This document shows, in pieces, positions 7,985 to 22,632 of a stretch of DNA of 64,000 nucleotides (within the stretch, counting starts at the first letter, position 1; each line of letters opens with the position of its first letter). The DNA is taken from positions 46,988-110,987 of the forward strand of contig JABSRU010000011.1 of NCBI GenBank assembly GCA_013214965.1, given 5' to 3'. This stretch comes from Gammaproteobacteria bacterium (GTDB lineage: Bacteria > Pseudomonadota > Gammaproteobacteria > Enterobacterales > Psychrobiaceae). The position numbers and the translations under genes were made by a program. The notes under the pieces are model-generated. The model did no database searches, had not been told where the DNA came from, and worked only from the letters and a program-made list of their open reading frames with translations.

Positions 7985-9364
7985 CTAGATCTCATTGGTC
8001 TGTTTTCGAAATGACTCCGGCTGTAAATGGTGTCGATTAAGTAATTTATAAAATTCTGTTCTGTTACGGTTGGCAATTTTGGCTGCTTGCGAGACATTGC
8101 CAGCGGTGAGTTTGAGTAGCTTTGATAGATAATCTAACTCAAATTGGTCTCGAGCTTCTTGAAAAGAAAGAAAATTATTGGTTTTGTTGCGCAGGGCATT
8201 AGCGATTAAGTCAACACTGATTAAACTATCTGTTGCTAGTGCAACGCTGTGCTCTATTACATTTTGTAATTGACGAATATTACCAGGCCATGGCGCGCTA
8301 ATCAGTAGCTCCATCGCTTGCTGGGTAAATCCGCTAATATCATAGTCTGAGTTTTTGAGGGTGTTGGCCAAAAAATGCTGTGCTAGCAAAGGAATATCTT
8401 CGCGGCGATTCGCTAAGCTGGGTAATTCAAGTTCCACCACATTCAAGCGGTAGTATAAGTCTTCTCGAAATGTTTTATCGATAATCGCTTGCAGTAAATT
8501 CTTATGAGTTGCAGAAATAATTCGGACATCGGTGGCAATAGATTTAGTACTGCCAACCGGTCGTATTTCCTTTTCTTGTAAAGCTCTTAATAACTTCACC
8601 TGAAAGTTCATTGGCATATCACCAATTTCATCCAGAAAAAGCGTCCCGCCGTTAGTGGCTTCAAACAATCCAATATGATTTGTTTGGGCACCTGTAAATG
8701 CGCCTTTGACATGGCCAAATAACTCTGACTCGAGTAATGCTTCAGGAATTGCGGCACAGTTTATAGCGGTAAATGGTTTCTTTGAACGAGGGCTCGCCCG
8801 ATGAATTGCTTTTGCTAATAGCTCTTTACCAGTTCCACTTTCGCTAGATATTAATAAACTGAAATCTGTTTTTGCGACTTGTAATGTTTGTTGAATTAAC
8901 GCGTTCATCACCGTGCTGCGGCTAATAATATCGCTACGCCAATAATCACTATCTGCTTGATCGCTATCATTCATCGGTGTGGGCTGTAAGCGAATAGCTT
9001 GTTCCACAGTATTGAGTAGTTCTTGGCTTTCAAAAGGCTTAGTCAAAAAGCTAAAGACCCCTTGTTTAGTCGCATTGATAGCATCCGGAATCGTGCCATG
9101 GGCCGTCATGATAATCACGGGGATATTGGGGTATTGCTGGCGCACTTTTTCAAATAAAGCCATGCCATCCATTTCATCCATCCGTAAATCACTGATCACC
9201 AGTTGGGGGTTAAAACTGGTTAAAATACCTAAGGCCATTTTAGCACTTGAAGCAGATTGCACCTGGTAGCCAGCTGCCGACAACCTGATGCCCAATAAGC
9301 GTAATAAACTAGGGTCATCATCAACGATTAAAATTTTCTCGACTTGATGTTGTGGTGAGGTCAT
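7985..9364 (-). CDS. glrR: Sigma-54-dependent response regulator GlrR (QseF)
   Basis: This is an NtrC-type activator. Residues about 10-120 are a receiver domain (VDDD acidic pocket, phospho-Asp in [14 protein letters not shown] switch). About 150-385 is the AAA+ sigma-54 activation domain, with Walker A SESGTGKE and the sigma-54 contact motif GAFTGA. The C terminus is a Fis-type helix-turn-helix ([16 protein letters not shown]). It is the last gene of a three-gene operon with QseG and GlrK, each overlapping by four bases, exactly as in E. coli. In E. coli GlrR binds TGTC-N10-GACA sites and activates sigma-54 promoters; both elements occur upstream of the operon here (11473 and 11651). Confidence 0.93.
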
Positions 9365-9939
9365 TGCGGGTCGGTCCCATGGTTATTAATATTGAGCTCA
9401 ATGGTTTTCAATTGCTGCAATTGCAATTTTAGTAAACTAAGTTGTTCGTTTAATGAGCTTAGCTGGACATTTAGCTGATTGATGGTATTTGTTTGTTGTG
9501 CGAGTTGTGCAATGTTGCGGTCGTTGACTAAATCTTGACCAATTAGCTTTTGAAACAGTAAAATCTGTTGATTAAGTTGATCTCTTAATACCGTTAGTAA
9601 TGCGATATCTGAATTGTTCATTTCAAAATATTGGCTATTATCGAATTGATATTTATTAAGAATTGTTTTTGCTGTGTAAGGATTGTGTATCGAGGAATTG
9701 GGCAAACTATGAATCATTAATAACTTTATATTACTGTCGAACTCTTCGCTATTAAGCCGTTTTTGCTGGTGTATTTCCGTTAATAGTTGTTCGTTACTGA
9801 GCTTTTTAAGGCCTAAGTAATATTGACCATAGTTTGTCGGTGTGATGATCTGAATGATCTCAGTTTCTTTGTTCGGTGATGAAATATGTTGGCAAGCCGT
9901 TAAACAAAACAGGGTTAATGTGATTAATAGGTACTTCAT
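9361..9939 (-). CDS. qseG: QseG/YfhG-like outer-membrane lipoprotein
   Basis: This 192-residue lipoprotein has a type II signal peptide with lipobox LTAC (cysteine at residue 16). A mostly helical, Gln/Leu-rich body with coiled-coil character follows at about 130-185. Its position between the GlrK-type kinase and GlrR, overlapping both by four bases, identifies it as the QseG (YfhG) position of the glr/qse operon. In enterics QseG interacts with the periplasmic part of the kinase and tunes its activity. Sequence conservation in this family is low, so the call rests mainly on lipobox, length and context. Confidence 0.8.
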   Translation of the reverse strand: MKYLLITLTLFCLTACQHISSPNKETEIIQIITPTNYGQYYLGLKKLSNEQLLTEIHQQKRLNSEEFDSNIKLLMIHSLPNSSIHNPYTAKTILNKYQFDNSQYFEMNNSDIALLTVLRDQLNQQILLFQKLIGQDLVNDRNIAQLAQQTNTINQLNVQLSSLNEQLSLLKLQLQQLKTIELNINNHGTDPQ

Positions 9940-11354
9940 TGTTCTTCTCCTTGCTGAAAGGCTCTTGGTAGAGTGATAGCCATGGTTGTACCCGTTGGCC
10001 CACTGGTGTAACTGTTGATAGATATATCGCCATTCAAACGCATTAATAGCTCTTTGACGATAGTTAACCCTAAACCACTGCCTTTTATTTTTGAATGTTG
10101 TGGTGGTGCACCTTGATAAAATGCATCGAAAACAAATTGTTGAGCCTCTAATGATATCCCTGTTCCTTGGTCCGATATCGATAATGTTAATTGTTGTTTG
10201 GTGATTGAACTAGCAATGGTGATGGTGCCGTTAGGCGGAGAATATTTGATGGCATTAGAAATTAGGTTTTCTAAGATCACCGTCAGTTGTTTACCATTAC
10301 AGTATAAACCAATTGGCGTGAGCTGTTTGCTCATGGTGATATTTTTGCTTTTAATATCTAAAATGTGCTGAGCGACAACTTGTTCGATGATGGGTGATAA
10401 GGGCATTTTTTCGCGATCTTGGAGGCTAGTGGAATCGAGCACGATATTAAAATCAAGTAAGGCTTCAATCAATTGCTGCAGACGTTTGACGCTTGATTTG
10501 ATGATGGTACAAATTTCTTGCTGTGATTGATTGAGCGTTCCAACACTGTTGTCATAGAGTAACTCGACACCTTCTCGAATCGCCGCCAGTGGTGTTTTTA
10601 ATTCGTGAGAGGTATGACGAATAAAGCTCGATTTTTGCAGCTCTAAAGCATGTAGTCTAGTGCGCATTATTTCCAAGGCATTGGCAATTTCACTGATCTC
10701 ATTTGAACCACTAACTATCATCGTTTGCTCAAAGTTACCATGGGCTAATGATTGGATTTGTTTGGTTAATTTTTTTAATGGTGTGGTGATTAAATAGATA
10801 AACAAAATAGAAATAAGTAAAGAAATCGGAATAATAATCAAAGTTTTAAGGATGTTAAGACTCACGAGTTCGGCGGATAGTTTTATATCCTGTGCCTTGC
10901 TATTAATTATTCGGCTGGTGTGTTGATCTATTTGTCTGTTTAATTGAGCTAGTTGTCGAAATTTATTTTGCAACTGCGCCAAGGTTACTGGATGACTCTG
11001 GCTCTCGCCTTGCGTCATTAATTGCACGGTTGAGTTGGTTAAATGATTAAACTCAGTCGTTAACTTAGACAGTTGGCGGTTTGACTTCTTTTGCTGATAC
11101 ATCACTAAAATATCAGGTATTTCGAGCGAGAGTTTGATGAAATTTTGTTTTAATTCCTCATCATTTAACACCAAAAATTGGCTCGCAGAACGTTCCATTT
11201 TTTTTAAAGTGTCGATTAGTTCGCTATTAATCTGGGTTAGTTTTGCTACTTGAAAAATAGCATTGGTACTTTTTATTGATAACATATTGATTTGGCTAGC
11301 ACTATAAAACAGCCCCATCATTAATGGCAGTGCCACTAAGGCAAAGCCGAGCAA
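9936..11354 (-). CDS. glrK: Sensor histidine kinase GlrK (QseE)
   Basis: GlrK is the membrane sensor that phosphorylates GlrR. It has a first membrane segment at the N terminus, a helical periplasmic sensor, a second membrane segment near residue 165-190 and a HAMP linker. The HisKA box is HTSHELKTPLAAIRE, followed by an ATPase domain with N box NLISNAIKYSPP, SDQGTGI and GSGLGLTIVKEL. The TTG at 11354 is the first standard start, but the open frame continues upstream and encodes a basic stretch (KKL) expected before the first membrane helix. An ATT at 11399 preceded by CGGGGAATAAC could be the true start; no ATG or GTG exists in that extension. Confidence 0.92.
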   Translation of the reverse strand: MLGFALVALPLMMGLFYSASQINMLSIKSTNAIFQVAKLTQINSELIDTLKKMERSASQFLVLNDEELKQNFIKLSLEIPDILVMYQQKKSNRQLSKLTTEFNHLTNSTVQLMTQGESQSHPVTLAQLQNKFRQLAQLNRQIDQHTSRIINSKAQDIKLSAELVSLNILKTLIIIPISLLISILFIYLITTPLKKLTKQIQSLAHGNFEQTMIVSGSNEISEIANALEIMRTRLHALELQKSSFIRHTSHELKTPLAAIREGVELLYDNSVGTLNQSQQEICTIIKSSVKRLQQLIEALLDFNIVLDSTSLQDREKMPLSPIIEQVVAQHILDIKSKNITMSKQLTPIGLYCNGKQLTVILENLISNAIKYSPPNGTITIASSITKQQLTLSISDQGTGISLEAQQFVFDAFYQGAPPQHSKIKGSGLGLTIVKELLMRLNGDISINSYTSGPTGTTMAITLPRAFQQGEEQ

Positions 11355-11472: not shown

Positions 11473-11490
11473 TGTCTCAATTTGGAGACA
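11473..11490. promoter_or_regulatory. GlrR-type upstream activating site (TGTC-N10-GACA)
   Basis: The sequence at 11473-11490 is TGTC, ten bases, GACA, a perfect match to the E. coli GlrR binding motif. The inner bases extend the dyad (GTCTC/GAGAC). It lies about 160 bases upstream of the sigma-54 promoter on the plus strand, a normal enhancer distance, and next to the glr operon start on the other side. Confidence 0.75.
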
Positions 11491-11650
11491 GTCTATGATG
11501 ACAGCAAAAAATTATATAAGATTATGATTTTTATTGTTTATCTTGATGATTGTCAGTTGTTTTTATTTTTACTAAAAATAACTGTTGTCAAATGGCAACA
11601 GAATAGTTGTTGCGTAATATTTAAAGTGTTTATTATCAGTTGGTTACTAG

Positions 11651-11667
11651 TTGGCACAGAGGTTGCA
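11651..11667 (+). promoter_or_regulatory. Sigma-54 (RpoN) promoter of the EF-hand gene
   Basis: TTGGCAC at 11651-11657 and TTGCA at 11663-11667, five bases apart, give the invariant GG (-24) and GC (-12) at the correct spacing. The start of transcription would be about 11678, leaving a leader of some 33 bases before the ATG at 11711, with Shine-Dalgarno AAGGAAG. Confidence 0.85.
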
Positions 11668-11710
11668 TTTTCGAGGGAGATATAACATAACTAATAGATA
11701 AGGAAGTAAC

Positions 11711-12112
11711 ATGAAAAATATCTTAAAAATCACGGCCACCTCATTATTATTAATATCAGCGAGTTCAGTGTTAACAATCAATGCGAATGAGTTGACCAAC
11801 GTTGCGCAAGAGGCCAAAGTGGCATCAGAGCTTAAAGTGACACAAGAGTCTAAAGCTATAAAAAATTCGGCCGCTGTTGAATTGAAAAAATTGGATTCAC
11901 TGGAAATCCAGCCTGTTAAGCAGTTATCTTTCAAAGATATTATCAAAAACTTAGACACTGACCAGAGCGGGACGCTAAGTTGGTCAGAAGTGAAAAACTC
12001 TGATGATGAGCTACTACAAAATGCATTTAGCAAAATTGATCTCGATAAAGATGCCGAAATCACCGAGTTTGAGTTCAACACCTTTTTAGAACCAGTACAA
12101 ATACAGAGCTAA
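11711..12112 (+). CDS. Secreted two-EF-hand protein, predicted GlrR/sigma-54 target
   Basis: This 133-residue protein has a Sec signal peptide (about 1-26, ending in NANE). A low-complexity Ala/Lys/Glu stretch is followed by two EF-hand calcium loops. Loop 1 has D82, D84, S86, T88, S90 and E93; loop 2 has D110, D112, D114, E116, T118 and E121, both with the full 12-residue ligand pattern. It probably binds calcium in the periplasm. A sigma-54 promoter and GlrR-type enhancer precede it, so an envelope-sensing kinase may control it. Its specific function is unknown. Confidence 0.85.
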   Translation: MKNILKITATSLLLISASSVLTINANELTNVAQEAKVASELKVTQESKAIKNSAAVELKKLDSLEIQPVKQLSFKDIIKNLDTDQSGTLSWSEVKNSDDELLQNAFSKIDLDKDAEITEFEFNTFLEPVQIQS

Positions 12113-12120
12113 CTCGATCC

Positions 12121-12152
12121 TCCCGTAATCAATTAGTAAAATGATTACGGGA
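12121..12152 (+). terminator. Hairpin after the EF-hand gene
   Basis: A perfect 10-bp stem TCCCGTAATC/GATTACGGGA (12121-12130 and 12143-12152) follows the stop by 8 bases. There is no strong T-run, so termination may be partial and may allow some read-through into the next small gene. Confidence 0.55.
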
Positions 12153-12185: not shown

Positions 12186-12521
12186 ATGAAAGATATTATG
12201 TCTCGTTATGTTGAAATAGACGGTTGGATATTTGAAATAAAAATGGTGCGGGCAATTAGAGCCGATACTTACGGAAAACCCTATAATGCCATTGCAAATA
12301 TATCGATTAATAATGATAAAGGTTACATTGATGGCCTAATGACCAATGAAAATGATGATTTTGGTCGAGAAGATTTTCAGACCTTTGTGAAGTTTTCGCA
12401 ACAAATTGGCTTGTCACAAGTGCAATTTGATCGCTATAAGAATAATAAAAAGCGCTCAGTTACGGTCGATGTTCCACCACTGCCAGCAGAATTTCCTAAG
12501 TTAAAACTGGTACAAAATTAA
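12186..12521 (+). CDS. Hypothetical 111-residue cytoplasmic protein
   Basis: I do not recognise the family. The frame is open from an ATG at 12141, but that falls inside the preceding hairpin. The ATG at 12186 has AAAGGTG about 5 bases upstream, giving a protein starting MKDIMSRYVEIDG. It has no signal peptide or membrane helix, and looks like a small alpha/beta protein with many charged residues and a Pro-rich segment (VPPLPAEFPK) at the C terminus. It sits between the EF-hand gene and a convergent PEP-CTERM gene, with which it shares a terminator. Confidence 0.65.
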   Translation: MKDIMSRYVEIDGWIFEIKMVRAIRADTYGKPYNAIANISINNDKGYIDGLMTNENDDFGREDFQTFVKFSQQIGLSQVQFDRYKNNKKRSVTVDVPPLPAEFPKLKLVQN

Positions 12522-12570: not shown

Positions 12571-13176
12571 TTACTTAATCATACGTCTAACTTGAACCAG
12601 CATTAAACCCACTAGGATTAATGCAACTGACGTTGGTTCCGGTATCGCTGTCGCTCCTGATGTTGTAATAAAGCTAGTGCTATTACTTTGAATATCAGTT
12701 AAAGCAGTACCAATGTCATTACCAGTAGCGATGTTATTTAAGCTAAATAAACCTGAGCCGACATTGATGATGTCAAAGTTAATCGAGGCTAAAGTAAATT
12801 TACTGATCCCGTCTTGTAAAACCAGTAGCTCATCATAAAGTAAATAGCTCAATTCAAAGATATTTAAGATCCCTGAAGCAGTCACATTATCTAGTTGTAA
12901 ACTATCTAAACCGTCTCCTAGTTTCTCACCAAACGACAATGAGTCAAAAGATAGCAAACTGTTATCAAACATCAGGTCAAGTTCAAAGTCGGCAATTAAC
13001 GAAGTAAAGCCAATGCTGTCTTTTTCAATATCAGACACCACCAGGTTGGCCGTTAACGTTTGACCAACATTGAAGTCTGTTTGATCTAGCTCGATAGAGA
13101 ACAGTGTCGCATTCACTGAGCTGGCAAACATTACCGACAGTAGTAAACCTGAGATAATTTTAATGGTATTTTTCAT
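12571..13176 (-). CDS. PEP-CTERM protein with cohesin-like domain
   Basis: This is an exported 201-residue protein. A signal peptide (about 1-23) precedes a beta-rich domain of about 140 residues. That domain opens like cohesins (VGQTLTANLVVSDI, then FELDLMFDNSLLSFDS). The C terminus is a PEP-CTERM sorting tail: IPEPTS, a hydrophobic helix, then RRMIK. Such tails are cut by an exosortase (not in this window) and fix proteins in the envelope or exopolysaccharide. The gene begins 35 bases after a nuclease gene ending in a dockerin-like module, on the same strand and without an intervening terminator, so the two are probably co-transcribed. Cohesin assignment is by pattern and should be confirmed by profile search. 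Confidence 0.8.
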   Translation of the reverse strand: MKNTIKIISGLLLSVMFASSVNATLFSIELDQTDFNVGQTLTANLVVSDIEKDSIGFTSLIADFELDLMFDNSLLSFDSLSFGEKLGDGLDSLQLDNVTASGILNIFELSYLLYDELLVLQDGISKFTLASINFDIINVGSGLFSLNNIATGNDIGTALTDIQSNSTSFITTSGATAIPEPTSVALILVGLMLVQVRRMIK

Positions 13177-13211: not shown

Positions 13212-16200
13212 TTAGTTGGTTGCACAACGTCTGCGAGTACACAGCTTAGTCATGGCACGGAGATCTCGAGTATTAACCCGTTGATCATGGTTAAAGTCAT
13301 ATTCGTTACCAAAAACTTCACCGCGACGTAATCCGATTGAGAATAAGCGAATGTCACTGCGGTCAACATCATTGTCGTTATCTAAATCACCCAATAGTAC
13401 TGAAGTGGCTGGTTGTAGGTCTAAGGTAATAACCACTGGATCATGATCCGAGGCACGATAGGCATCGTTGCCATAGAAGGTGTCAAGTTGTTGCGCTGAT
13501 TTATATTCGGTGTTGTAATCGAAAATTCGCGGTTCATCAGCATTGATGTGCCATACCGTAGTATCAACGATTTGTACTGCTAACTCAGATGATGCTAATG
13601 CATGATCTAGGTAGCCCATTTCACCTTGATAAGCATATGAATAAGCCGCGCGGCCAAGATGAGTGGTTAACAAGTTTTTGAAACCAGCATCAGTAATAGT
13701 ATTGATAGGATCTTCTTTACCGTAGGCATTTAAATCGCCAATGATTAAGAAATCTTGATCATTACTTTGGGTCGGATCAGTCGCTAACCATGACACTAAA
13801 GTTGTCGCAGCTTGCGTTCGCATGGTATTCCAACAACCTTGACCATCTCGCTGATCTTGGTTAGTGCCTGTCGCACGACTACAACTGCCTTTCGATTTAA
13901 AGTGGTTGACAGCGACGGTCAGTACCTGATCATTACTTAGCTGTTTAAAACTTTGTGCTAGCGGTTGACGATTACCGTAATCAAAAGGTGTTTGGGTAGT
14001 GGTTACTGCTTCACCCATTGGCATCACTTTGCTTGGCTGATAAATTAAACCAACAGCAATCGCGTCAGATCCTAAGGTCGCTTGATTGTAACTCACATAG
14101 GCGTAGTTATTGCTGCCTTGTCTGCTGTTAAGCTCATTAACCAGTGTGGCAATGGCTGAATCAGCACCGTAGCCATCATTTTCAATTTCCATTAAGCCAA
14201 TGATATCAGCGTTAATGCTTAAAATAGCAGACACTATTTTGTCGCTTTGACGGTTAAATTCTTCCACGGTATGAGCACCACGAGCGGTTGGAAAACCACC
14301 TTCATTACCGTCACCGTTGAAATAGTTTAAGACATTAAAGCTTGCAATTTTTAAGCTACCATTGCTTAAGCTTGGTTGTGGCGTGCGTGCGTTACTTGTG
14401 ACAAACGTCGGTGTTTGGGTTGGTAAAACTCTAAAATCACCAAAACTGTAATCAATAATACCGCTAAGTTCAATCACCGAATCTCCTAAACGCACGGTAT
14501 TTTGATGGCTTAAAGAAGGCACTGGAAATGCAATAATATCTGGGTTTTGACGGCTGTTTAGGTCATCAAGCAATATCTTATTTCGGCTATTTTTGTCTGC
14601 TAAGGCAATCGCCTGTGCTGAACCTGCTTTAAAGATATTAGTTGGCTTAATTAAACGACCTTGCGATAACGTTAACTGACCAAAACGCGCTAGATTATAA
14701 GTATCAGTAACGCTTAGCTCGTCATTAAAGTGAACTAACATTCCTTCAACCGATTCAAAATCGCTTGTTTGAGATATTGGTAAACTAACCGCTGTTACAG
14801 TAATCGGATCTACGCTACCACAATCAAGCGCAGCCACGGTGGTGCTTAGTTGAGTACGACTGTAGAATTCTTTGACTTCACCAATAACACGTACTTGATG
14901 ACCAATCGTTGGATAAGTGCTTATGTCAGCATGATGAACAAAAATAGCTTCTGATGATGCTTGATTATCATCGTAGTCATTAAGTTCTTCTTGGACAAAG
15001 TAACCGCTTAAATGTGGCATTGTTGCGCTCACTACACCTTCGATGGTGTGTGTTTGAGCGACCATTGTTGACGCAAAATCAGTGCCTTGGATCGCATGGA
15101 TTTTGGTTGCAGGATCATCACATTGACCAATTTCAAGCACTGGCTCAGTCGGTTCGATAGGGTCTGGCGTGGTATCCGCTTGATGGCTACCCAAGAAGCT
15201 AAAGGTATTCTTAGGATGAGTTAACCACTGAGCATCAACGTCAAAACCTACTGTGCGATCGGTATTTCCGGCGGTCACTGATGATTTTCTAACGAACGTT
15301 TTGTCTTTACCCCATTTGATTTTAACGCCAAATACGCCGACAAAATCGATCACCTGATCATTCTTAACCAGTTCAAAGTAGTCATCACCATTAAAGTTAA
15401 TCGCGCTAGCAACTTGATCGATTAAATCACTTGGTGCGAATTTTTTATGGCCCAATACCAGTACATCACCGGCGGCTAATTCACCGGATAATTGATTGGT
15501 GGTTGAAGCACTAGTGGCACCATTGGCATACATTTTAATACTGTAATCACTTAATGAAACACTGAGTGATGTTGGGTTATATATCTCAATCGCTTTGTTG
15601 AAAGAGCTGCCTTCAACATATTCAGAAATAAATAACTCGTCGCCATTACCTGGGGTTGGTGTTGGAGTCGGTTCTGGCGTTGGCTCGGGTGTAGGCTCGG
15701 GATCTGGCGTGCCAGTATTAGAACAATCGTTAGTAAAAACTTGATCAATCCATTCTGGATGATCAATAAACGGATTACGATTGCCTTGGAACTCATAAAT
15801 GGCATTATTACGATTTAGCTCGAAATCACTGACAGGATCGGCATTGCTCCATGCTAATAGAGTACATATTTTACCTAGCTTAGCATCGCCAACACTGGTG
15901 ATGTGATTGACTAACGTTAAATCTGGAGTTGAACCATCATTGCCGTTGTAACGTACATCCATATAAAACAAGATTCGGGCGATATCACCTTTAACATTGT
16001 TATTGGGCTCAAATGAGTCTGAATCGACCCGATTTTGTGGCGCTTCACTTAAAGGAGTGTCACTTAAATCAAAATCTAAATTACCTCGAGCTGAATTAAC
16101 TGAAATATCTGAAGGTCTTAAGTGATGGATATCCGTGTAGGCGAAGGCACTACTACTGGGAAAACCATGGCTTTTAGCCCATACATGTTCACGATTCCAA

Positions 16201-16643
16201 TTATCAGGATTACTAGATTGGCTACCACTACCGTTTGAGTGTTTTGCAATGGAGTTACCCTTATAAATTAAGATAACGTTATCAGGATTTTGTGGATCTT
16301 GATCCGTCACGGTCAGTGCCGTCCATGCCTCTGAATAAGATAGCTTTTTATGATTTTCACTAATGGTGCTATTGATTGCGCCACGTAGTTGATAATTTGA
16401 TTGGTTAGCGATGATTGCCGTTGTTACTCGCTGATAATAATCACTGTCAGAAAATAGAGTGGCATCGGCAATTTTAGTTAAACTAGGGCAGTTATAGCAA
16501 GCATCGGTCACTGTATCATTGGCCATTGCTGTCGTGGCTATACCGAAGCTTGATAATATGCTTAAGGCGATTAAATGTTGATTAAAATGTGCATTGGTCG
16601 ATCGCTTAGTATGAAAATCGTTATTGTTTTTCATCAGGTTCAT
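13212..16643 (-). CDS. Extracellular multidomain nuclease (EndA + LTD + EEP + dockerin-like tail)
   Basis: This 1143-residue secreted protein has a signal peptide (about 1-41). Next come an endonuclease I domain (about 60-290, with NWNREHVWAKSHGFP), a Pro/Thr/Glu linker (about 313-333), a lamin-tail domain (about 335-480) and an OB-like segment (about 505-760). An endonuclease/exonuclease/phosphatase domain follows (about 775-1075, with FNVLNYF, LMEIENDG, VNHFKSKG, GDLNAYGKEDP and SDHDPVVI). It ends in two calcium-loop repeats (GDLDNDNDVDRSDI and YDFNHDQRVNTRDL), a dockerin-like module, then CTRRRC. It resembles ExeM/NucH-type nucleases that degrade extracellular DNA, with an added second nuclease. 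The ATG at 16643 was taken; a Met three codons later is possible. Confidence 0.92.
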   Translation of the reverse strand: MNLMKNNNDFHTKRSTNAHFNQHLIALSILSSFGIATTAMANDTVTDACYNCPSLTKIADATLFSDSDYYQRVTTAIIANQSNYQLRGAINSTISENHKKLSYSEAWTALTVTDQDPQNPDNVILIYKGNSIAKHSNGSGSQSSNPDNWNREHVWAKSHGFPSSSAFAYTDIHHLRPSDISVNSARGNLDFDLSDTPLSEAPQNRVDSDSFEPNNNVKGDIARILFYMDVRYNGNDGSTPDLTLVNHITSVGDAKLGKICTLLAWSNADPVSDFELNRNNAIYEFQGNRNPFIDHPEWIDQVFTNDCSNTGTPDPEPTPEPTPEPTPTPTPGNGDELFISEYVEGSSFNKAIEIYNPTSLSVSLSDYSIKMYANGATSASTTNQLSGELAAGDVLVLGHKKFAPSDLIDQVASAINFNGDDYFELVKNDQVIDFVGVFGVKIKWGKDKTFVRKSSVTAGNTDRTVGFDVDAQWLTHPKNTFSFLGSHQADTTPDPIEPTEPVLEIGQCDDPATKIHAIQGTDFASTMVAQTHTIEGVVSATMPHLSGYFVQEELNDYDDNQASSEAIFVHHADISTYPTIGHQVRVIGEVKEFYSRTQLSTTVAALDCGSVDPITVTAVSLPISQTSDFESVEGMLVHFNDELSVTDTYNLARFGQLTLSQGRLIKPTNIFKAGSAQAIALADKNSRNKILLDDLNSRQNPDIIAFPVPSLSHQNTVRLGDSVIELSGIIDYSFGDFRVLPTQTPTFVTSNARTPQPSLSNGSLKIASFNVLNYFNGDGNEGGFPTARGAHTVEEFNRQSDKIVSAILSINADIIGLMEIENDGYGADSAIATLVNELNSRQGSNNYAYVSYNQATLGSDAIAVGLIYQPSKVMPMGEAVTTTQTPFDYGNRQPLAQSFKQLSNDQVLTVAVNHFKSKGSCSRATGTNQDQRDGQGCWNTMRTQAATTLVSWLATDPTQSNDQDFLIIGDLNAYGKEDPINTITDAGFKNLLTTHLGRAAYSYAYQGEMGYLDHALASSELAVQIVDTTVWHINADEPRIFDYNTEYKSAQQLDTFYGNDAYRASDHDPVVITLDLQPATSVLLGDLDNDNDVDRSDIRLFSIGLRRGEVFGNEYDFNHDQRVNTRDLRAMTKLCTRRRCATN

Positions 16644-21609: not shown

Positions 21610-22632
21610 ATGAGCGAATTAATACGCAGTGAATCGTTGCAAGGGTTTATCACCTTAGTGACACAACTTGGTGGTGATAGTAATCAGTTATTGGAAAAAT
21701 TGGATTTGCCGTTGCAAGTTGCCCAGCACAAAGGGCTGTATATGTCCTATCGTAAATATGCTGAACTATTAGAATTGAGCGCGGCAACACTCAATTGTGA
21801 CGACTTTGGAATTCGATTAGCGGCTTATCAAGATTTTGATATTTTAGGTCCCCTAGCTCTGGCTGCAAAGCAAGCTACAAACTTGTCCGATGCCTTTGGC
21901 TGGATTAATCAATATATTCATTTTCATACCCCAGGTTTAGAGACGTCGATGATTGTATTGCCCGATAACGACAATATTTTGCTTAATGTTAATATTTTGC
22001 TTAATCCATTGCCGCCGGTGAAACAAACGCTTGAATTAACTTTGGCCTTAGCGTGCCAGTTTATTGATTTGTTGAGTAATGGTCGATGTAAACCACAGAT
22101 GATTTATCTTCCCCATCAAAAAAGTAAAAACAGTAAAGCACGCAGGGAAATATTTGCTTGTCCCGTTGTTTATCAAGACACGATTGCCGCCATTGTAATA
22201 AAAAGTAATGATTTAATGATTCCATTGTCATTAAAACCGGACATGATGGCTGAGTCTGCGCTAAATTTTCTCAATCGTAGTTGTGACGCCAAATTGTTTG
22301 GACTTAAAGATCAGGTGGCGGCATTGATTCGGCCTTTGTTAATGATTGAGCAATGTGATAATCAAACGGTTTCATTGGCCTTAGGGTTAGGAGTTCGGCA
22401 ATTGCATCGTAAATTACGACAACAAGGCACTAGTTTCATTCAAATAAAAAACCAAGTTAGGCAGCAGTTAGCTGAGCAATACTTAGCGCAAGACTTACTA
22501 CCTATTGGTCAAATATCGACTCTGTTAGGCTATCAAGAGCAATCCGCATTTTGTAAAGCCTGTCAAATTTGGTTTAAGCAATCAGCAAAGTCTTATCGCG
22601 AGCAATTAATCAACGGTTTACTGTGCCCTTAA
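21610..22632 (+). CDS. AraC-family transcriptional regulator
   Basis: This 340-residue regulator has an N-terminal arabinose-binding-like domain (about 20-200) of the OruR/ArgR-like type. The C-terminal AraC helix-turn-helix pair (about 255-335) includes LALGLGVRQLHRKLRQQGTS and GYQEQSAFCKACQIWF. A ribosome site GGAGGG precedes the ATG. It is divergent from the GMC oxidoreductase and probably controls it. Its last 15 bases overlap a truncated kinase fragment on the other strand. Confidence 0.88.
   Translation: MSELIRSESLQGFITLVTQLGGDSNQLLEKLDLPLQVAQHKGLYMSYRKYAELLELSAATLNCDDFGIRLAAYQDFDILGPLALAAKQATNLSDAFGWINQYIHFHTPGLETSMIVLPDNDNILLNVNILLNPLPPVKQTLELTLALACQFIDLLSNGRCKPQMIYLPHQKSKNSKARREIFACPVVYQDTIAAIVIKSNDLMIPLSLKPDMMAESALNFLNRSCDAKLFGLKDQVAALIRPLLMIEQCDNQTVSLALGLGVRQLHRKLRQQGTSFIQIKNQVRQQLAEQYLAQDLLPIGQISTLLGYQEQSAFCKACQIWFKQSAKSYREQLINGLLCP

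Follow-up and report, generated by a model that had tools for sequence, protein, structure and literature searches.

An array of GlrR-type palindromes and a sigma-54 promoter precedes genes for predicted exported EF-hand proteins in several gammaproteobacterial families

Background

Nearly all that is known of the two-component system GlrK/GlrR (QseE/QseF) comes from enterobacteria, where it controls the small RNA GlmY and rpoE; the nature of its signal is a matter of debate. In E. coli, QseF activates both glmY and rpoE, is assisted by IHF, and has sites with the consensus TGT-N12-ACA, as set out in passages of PMC6075780; a stricter form of the QseF box, TGTCN10GACA, is given in part of PMC8745638. 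The initial annotation of the DNA described here had named sites of this type as those through which E. coli GlrR drives glmY and rpoE.

Many bacteria have exported EF-hand proteins, the control and role of which are mostly obscure. In the Cpx system, a small exported protein is encoded beside the sensor and is induced by the system's own regulator, which is not known to use sigma-54. CpxP is described as a periplasmic inhibitor in a passage of PMC6075780. Another small periplasmic protein in a stress circuit, this one with EF-hands, is CaBP of Caulobacter vibrioides, which has three of them and is tied to sigV (PMC13171946, in part). The linker of lanmodulin (LanM) is 12-13 residues long, compared with about 25 in ordinary Ca2+ EF-hand proteins, according to a section of PMC11845868. 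No link between GlrR/QseF and EF-hand proteins was found in the literature searched, the coverage of which stops short of subscription journals. A comparative study of sigma-54 has a QseF-like class, and EF-hands and calcium are not mentioned in the relevant portion of it (PMC3162934); likewise, the section of PMC8895600 on the distribution of GlrK/GlrR discusses it without EF-hand proteins.

The window analyzed here is a stretch of 64,000 nucleotides from a marine bacterium related to Colwellia. With the enterobacterial QseE/QseG/QseF-GlmY system its locus shares a three-gene layout of the same kind, the palindrome, the sigma-54 promoter, an IHF-like element, and a target adjoining the operon. 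It differs in output, which here would be an EF-hand protein and there is the small RNA GlmY; in its array, which here and in close relatives has two sites 110-133 bp apart whereas glmY has as many as three, with distances of 63 and 33 bp; and in the direction of the target, which is divergent in the Colwellia group. With the QseF-activated promoter P2 of E. coli rpoE (PMC6075780, in part) the locus would share GlrR-sigma-54 control of an envelope-related gene, the target there being the gene for a sigma factor.

Results and discussion

Three genes on the minus strand make up one side of the locus:

7985..9364, minus strand: glrR, sigma-54 response regulator, from domain and family models
9361..9939, minus strand: ORF in the qseG position, with a lipobox recognized by eye
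9936..11354, minus strand: glrK, sensor kinase, with a TTG start as listed; the open frame extends beyond this codon, which makes the true start uncertain

The glrR product has receiver and sigma-54 AAA+ domains, and GlrR is its top NCBIfam model, at 611 bits. This does not reach the equivalog cutoff of 763 bits, so the name GlrR rests on similarity, synteny, and the binding site and does not denote a certified equivalog. Its Pfam HTH_8 match is below cutoff; the HTH itself is nearly identical to that of enterobacterial GlrR, and it shares the stretch GNV-S/T-QAA... with Providencia, Proteus, Yersinia, and Serratia. The divergent operon had been annotated as encoding GlrK, QseG, and GlrR. The sensor kinase stands and GlrR is the best model at its sub-cutoff score, while the name QseG reflects position and lipobox, the ORF having no match among the Pfam and NCBIfam models.

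The intergenic region and the plus-strand genes contain the following:

11473..11490, no strand: distal GlrR palindrome TGTC-N10-GACA, a perfect match, TGTCTCAATTTGGAGACA
11583..11600, no strand: proximal GlrR palindrome TGTT-N10-AACA, which fits TGT-N12-ACA, TGTTGTCAAATGGCAACA
11634..11646, plus strand: IHF-like element, one mismatch to WATCAANNNNTTR
11651..11667, plus strand: sigma-54 promoter (-24/-12), TTGGCAC-N5-TTGCA, perfect and facing the EF-hand ORF, TTGGCACAGAGGTTGCA
11700..11706, plus strand: AAGGAAG, resembling a ribosome-binding site, by eye
11711..12112, plus strand: protein of 133 aa with two EF-hand loops (residues 82-93 and 110-121) and an N-terminus resembling a signal peptide
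12122..12151, plus strand: perfect 10-bp hairpin 3' of the EF-hand gene, with no T run after it
12186..12521, plus strand: 111-aa conserved 'VRAI' protein, function unassigned, probable second gene of the unit

The element at 11634-11646 was called with WATCAANNNNTTR, which we take to be the IHF consensus. The distal palindrome and the promoter had both been picked out from the letters of the window, and both are there and perfect; the proximal palindrome, which lies between them, 110 bp from the distal one, had been missed.

Taken one at a time, these motifs say little. TGTC-N10-GACA occurs twice in the window, where 0.60 are expected, and two were reached in 14 of 100 shuffles; the other occurrence, at 22226-22243, is probably due to chance. 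The whole genome has 33 matches against 26 for the reversed control and is hardly enriched, and a single site was rejected as evidence by itself on this count. For the exact sigma-54 pattern there is one match where 0.15 is expected, and 15 of 100 shuffles contained one. The palindrome alone or the sigma-54 motif alone is weak evidence. An extended palindrome pattern, built from the sites of relatives, has three matches in the window, at these two palindromes only, and none of 100 shuffles reached three, a comparison that is descriptive since the pattern was fitted to such sites. The composite of promoter and proximal site matched the 4.25 Mb genome here alone, with 0 matches for the control, and, there being no second place, rpoE has no match in this genome under that pattern. 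Across 369 genomes, the strict composite occurred at 13 places in 12 genomes against 4 in the control, and the one in the window was the sole match to a known EF-hand array; the pattern was too strict and too noisy and was rejected as a map of the regulon. The array is placed above chance by the second palindrome, by the uniqueness of the composite, and above all by conservation in relatives, which we take as decisive for the reality of the predicted sites.

A scan for GlrR in the genome collection gave 80 named loci, among them L031-L049 from Colwellia, Pseudocolwellia, Cognaticolwellia, Thalassotalea, Psychrosphaera, and one Alteromonas. Twenty-four loci were measured: the window, the L031-L049 loci other than L037 (whose contig ends in glrK), and five loci of family code f10, presumably Shewanella-like. 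All 24 contained the palindrome pair, 19 with both halves exact to TGTY-N10-RACA and five with one mismatch. Spacing within the pair was 121 or 122 bp in 20 loci and 110 (the window), 114, 127, and 133 bp in the rest; the search spanned 100-140 bp and slightly favored 121, and a later scan that favored no spacing returned the same pairs. A sigma-54-like site was present in 23 of the 24, the contig of L040 ending inside its promoter. Counted from the first base of the proximal palindrome, the promoter started 68-71 bp further on in 16 loci, 80-81 bp in six (including L040), and 93 and 112 bp in one each, so that the offsets are mostly one helical turn apart. An IHF-like element was found just before the promoter in 18 of the 24 loci, compared with a shuffle mean of 4.36.

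In the Colwellia/Thalassotalea/Psychrosphaera-type loci that have both genes and the DNA between them, the window included, the array precedes the EF-hand gene in every case (17/17). Among L031-L049, the intervening DNA is missing from L037 and L040, and L048 has an acidic peptide in place of the EF-hand protein: at L048 4330-4542 (Alteromonas sp. a30) the array faces a secreted-looking peptide of 71 aa with an acidic tail and no EF loops. In the f10 loci it is the VRAI gene that the array faces, and there is no EF-hand gene at the locus.

The distribution within the genus was also examined. Of nine genus genomes, GlrR was found in that of the window (G000) and as a contig-end fragment in G001, and the VRAI gene only in that of the window. 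In the complete genomes G004 and G002, xseA is still near the permease gene (the one that flanks glrR in the window), and no glrR, qseG, glrK, EF-hand, or VRAI gene was found at that place; GlrR and VRAI were not found elsewhere in these two genomes either. The glrR-qseG-glrK-EF-hand-VRAI block appears, on this comparison, to behave as a unit.

GlrR-like regulators were then sought in 369 genomes of the class. There were 97 places scoring at least 404 bits, not counting G000, G014, and G038, and upstream DNA was used for 93 of them, the other four having too little. An array was defined as two palindromes separated by 55-140 bp, with no more than one mismatch in total, and a sigma-54 score of 18.5 or more (out of 23) within 38-124 bp. 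By this rule an array was present in 61 of 194 GlrR loci, compared with 1, 4, 2, 0, and 0 in five dinucleotide-shuffled sets. At the rule's threshold, 133 of the 194 GlrR-like loci had none, including most of the class-wide loci, where ruvB or other genes lie upstream, and most halomonads. Chance would account for single motifs, each of which is expected now and then, but the pair, its spacing, and the promoter are kept together in 23 of the 24 close loci and the shuffled sets yielded 0-4 arrays; chance is very unlikely, and we give it practically no weight as an explanation of the sites.

In 25 of the 61 loci the gene after the array encoded an EF-hand protein. Another 21 loci were glmY-type; in four the array faced the VRAI gene and in one the gene for the acidic peptide (Alteromonas sp. 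a30), and ten had no clear assignment. Five of the glmY assignments were made by Rfam (L061, L109, G018, G025, and G084) and the others by synteny. The 25 array-EF loci are 17 from the Colwellia group and eight from six further family codes:

family code f15: G046
family code f7: G014
family code f91: G293
family code f102: G299
family code f109: G406
family code f158: G340, G435, and G228

The initial annotation had proposed conservation in relatives that keep both genes as the check on its reading, and the sites are conserved there, upstream of the EF-hand gene in the 17 loci above and in these six further family codes. The palindromes of the other-family loci are 65-67 bp apart, or 107-112 in two. 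Many sigma-54 activators are encoded in the genome of the window (17 scored matches), any one of which might in principle use the sites. Yet the palindrome is the published QseF box (PMC6075780 and PMC8745638, in the passages on these sites), arrays go with glrR loci across families, and the block is missing in the two genus mates that have no GlrR, and use by a different activator is extremely improbable.

The orientation of the target varied. The EF-hand gene is divergent from glrK in f7 (G014), f102, f158, and the Colwellia group, and codirectional with it in f91 and f109; in f15 (G046) the array and EF-hand gene are behind glrR and not beside glrK. These arrangements bear on the idea that the array mainly autoregulates glrK-qseG-glrR, with the EF-hand gene as a passive neighbor. 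The palindromes of the window are in a divergent intergenic region, from which bound GlrR could act both ways. However, the sigma-54 site points to the EF-hand gene, the f91 and f109 arrays precede EF-hand genes that run in the same direction as glrK, the f15 array stands behind glrR and before the EF-hand gene, and a results heading in PMC6075780 gives an absence of autoregulation for E. coli qseEGF. Autoregulation as the main role is very unlikely. The recurrence of this array before EF-hand genes in other families, in both orientations and once behind glrR, speaks for the EF-hand gene as the target of regulation rather than a bystander.

EF-hand ORFs were also counted without regard to arrays. 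A home-made rule (60-180 aa, an EF loop, a hydrophobic N-terminus) found 37 small EF-hand ORFs in 1.895 Mb of GlrR loci, and all 37 were upstream of the kinase gene, 24 of them placed by script and 13 from separate readings of the loci; this 1.9 Mb control consists of loci drawn around glrR, that is, DNA within about 10 kb of glrR. Three EF-hand ORFs escaped the rule, those of L033, L097, and L117; that of L117 is behind glrR. When the secretion rule was dropped there were 28 ORFs with at least two loops, 26 of which were upstream of the kinase gene; the others were that of L117 and the 1143-aa nuclease-like ORF of the window. An EF-hand gene stands right upstream of glrK without a convincing array in L097 (Neptunomonas marina), L124, and L127. 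Tandem runs of three to five small EF-hand genes were seen beside glrK in L036 (2508-4422), L039 (3243-4429), L165 (2828-4184), and L128 (5023-6089).

The window's EF-hand ORF starts 43 bases past the sigma-54 promoter. The palindromes and the promoter are in register with it. Its product matches Pfam EF-hand_1 and has two loops of 12 residues, each with ligands at its positions 1 and 12; position 6 of loop 2 is Ala. The description of this product as a secreted two-EF-hand protein holds for the loops and the Pfam match, and for secretion it corresponds to a signal-peptide-like, hydrophobic N-terminus recognized by the home-made rule and by eye. Twenty-five proteins were aligned, leaving out L047 and L173 (near copies), the three of L165, and the extra tandem copies in L035, L036, L038, L039, and L128. 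All 25 matched EF-hand_1, and the four columns invariant across the alignment were positions 1 and 12 of both loops. In the predicted model the EF-hand pair is confident, with pLDDT 94-98 in blocks, and follows an N-terminal half of low confidence. A fold search with the EF-hand returned EF-hand proteins, calmodulin included, none with E < 0.001. As a query for homologues the window protein was fruitless, matching only 3 of 98 genomes, a result by which absence of EF-hand proteins elsewhere cannot be judged. The loop-to-loop linker is 13-16 residues in the 25 proteins, a compactness shared with lanmodulin; in contrast to lanmodulin, the proteins have two loops and none of the 25 has Pro at loop position 2. 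Membership of the lanmodulin family was rejected on the latter feature and on a NCBIfam LanM score of 16.8 against a cutoff of 135.

The VRAI protein was found in 8 of 98 genomes, all eight with a GlrR orthologue, and had no family match. Its top PDB matches were GNAT acetyltransferases with E ≥ 0.017 (none < 0.001) from a model of pLDDT 73, and assignment to a known fold was rejected, leaving a weak lead only. No exact GlrR palindromes were found near the VRAI genes that are distant from glrR in G094 and G014. Further downstream in the window are an exported-looking ORF with a PEP-CTERM-like tail by eye (12571-13176) and the large nuclease-like ORF (13212-16643), which has two EF-like C-terminal loops, dockerin-like by eye.

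As a control, the same motif was found upstream of glmY in enterics. Rfam GlmY (RF00128) was detected in five of 98 genomes (G018, G025, G033, G042, and G084) and in none of the genomes of that set where an EF-hand or VRAI gene adjoins glrK or follows an array, the filters being strict enough to lose weak matches. Under the same kind of strict filters GlmY was not found in G000, and Rfam matches in the window were weak and at chance level. The idea that the EF-hand gene is a target of the enterobacterial type that has merely moved was rejected, no GlmY having been found in G000 under these filters.

A different possibility is that the product at the EF-hand position is itself an RNA, either GlmY-like or derived from the 3'UTR, and that the ORF is incidental. 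GlmY does occupy this place in enterobacteria, and a hairpin lies 3' of the EF-hand gene, between it and the VRAI gene; at least five T follow it in six of nine relatives read (L031-L049 gaps) and none in the window. An alignment of these hairpins was too poor for use. However, no Rfam small RNA reached the gathering score in the EF loci scanned, the predicted leader of about 34 nt ends directly at an ORF that is preceded by a ribosome-binding-site-like sequence, and the EF loop residues are conserved across families, all of which makes an RNA product very unlikely. The EF-hand protein remains the preferred output. Arrays upstream of glrK with no clear protein target were seen in three halomonad loci, L050 (4140-4330), L108 (3020-3210), and L098 (4034-4270); L050, the one of the three that was scanned, gave no Rfam match. 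These halomonad arrays possibly serve an undescribed GlmY-like RNA.

In an unrooted tree of GlrK with 84 rows, seven of them long and of unsure place (L237, L128, L097, L123, L210, L217, and L048), the 16 glmY loci fell inside one supported group of 17 rows, and the 25 array-EF rows were scattered, with eight label changes of which at least six were forced by well supported branches. The scatter of the one and the confinement of the other indicate that the EF-hand output is not simply a local switch from glmY. Of the target change relative to E. coli that had been suggested for the window, the EF-hand output is supported by conservation, while a simple local change from glmY is not. The EF-hand output would be either old and often lost or gained repeatedly, and the unrooted tree favors neither.

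Conclusions

The array likely lets phosphorylated GlrR switch on a predicted exported, predicted Ca2+-binding EF-hand protein, and the genomic comparisons indicate that GlrR control of such a protein is very probably real and widespread. The many GlrR loci that have no array, and the f10 loci with their array but no EF-hand gene, weigh against this reading. By analogy with E. coli, GlrK, aided by the QseG-like lipoprotein, would sense a change in the envelope and phosphorylate GlrR. The matching sites and the conserved HTH suggest that GlrR binds both palindromes. As in other members of its family, looping of the DNA, perhaps with IHF, would bring GlrR to the sigma-54 polymerase at 11651-11667, where ATP hydrolysis would open the promoter. 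The transcript would consist of the leader and the EF-hand ORF and may read on into the VRAI gene. Once exported, the EF-hand protein would bind periplasmic Ca2+, and might act as a buffer, as a stabilizer of the envelope, or as a ligand in feedback on the sensor. CpxP and CpxA offer a parallel to the last, CpxP being, as is predicted for the EF-hand protein, a small exported product encoded beside a sensor; the two have no relation in fold, and it is a hypothesis that the EF-hand protein feeds back on GlrK.

A broader reading is put forward tentatively and is somewhat doubtful: outside the enterobacteria, GlrK-QseG-GlrR may be a module for homeostasis of periplasmic calcium or envelope charge, its compact exported EF-hand output may feed back on the sensor, and enterobacterial GlmY may be a later replacement behind the same kind of array.

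If GlrR drives EF-hand proteins in many gammaproteobacterial families, the wider purpose of the system would be tied to a predicted periplasmic calcium-binding protein. The locus would then be a case in which a regulator and its DNA motif keep their match while the product switches between protein and RNA, and the EF-hand link, if true, would give a concrete handle on what GlrK senses.
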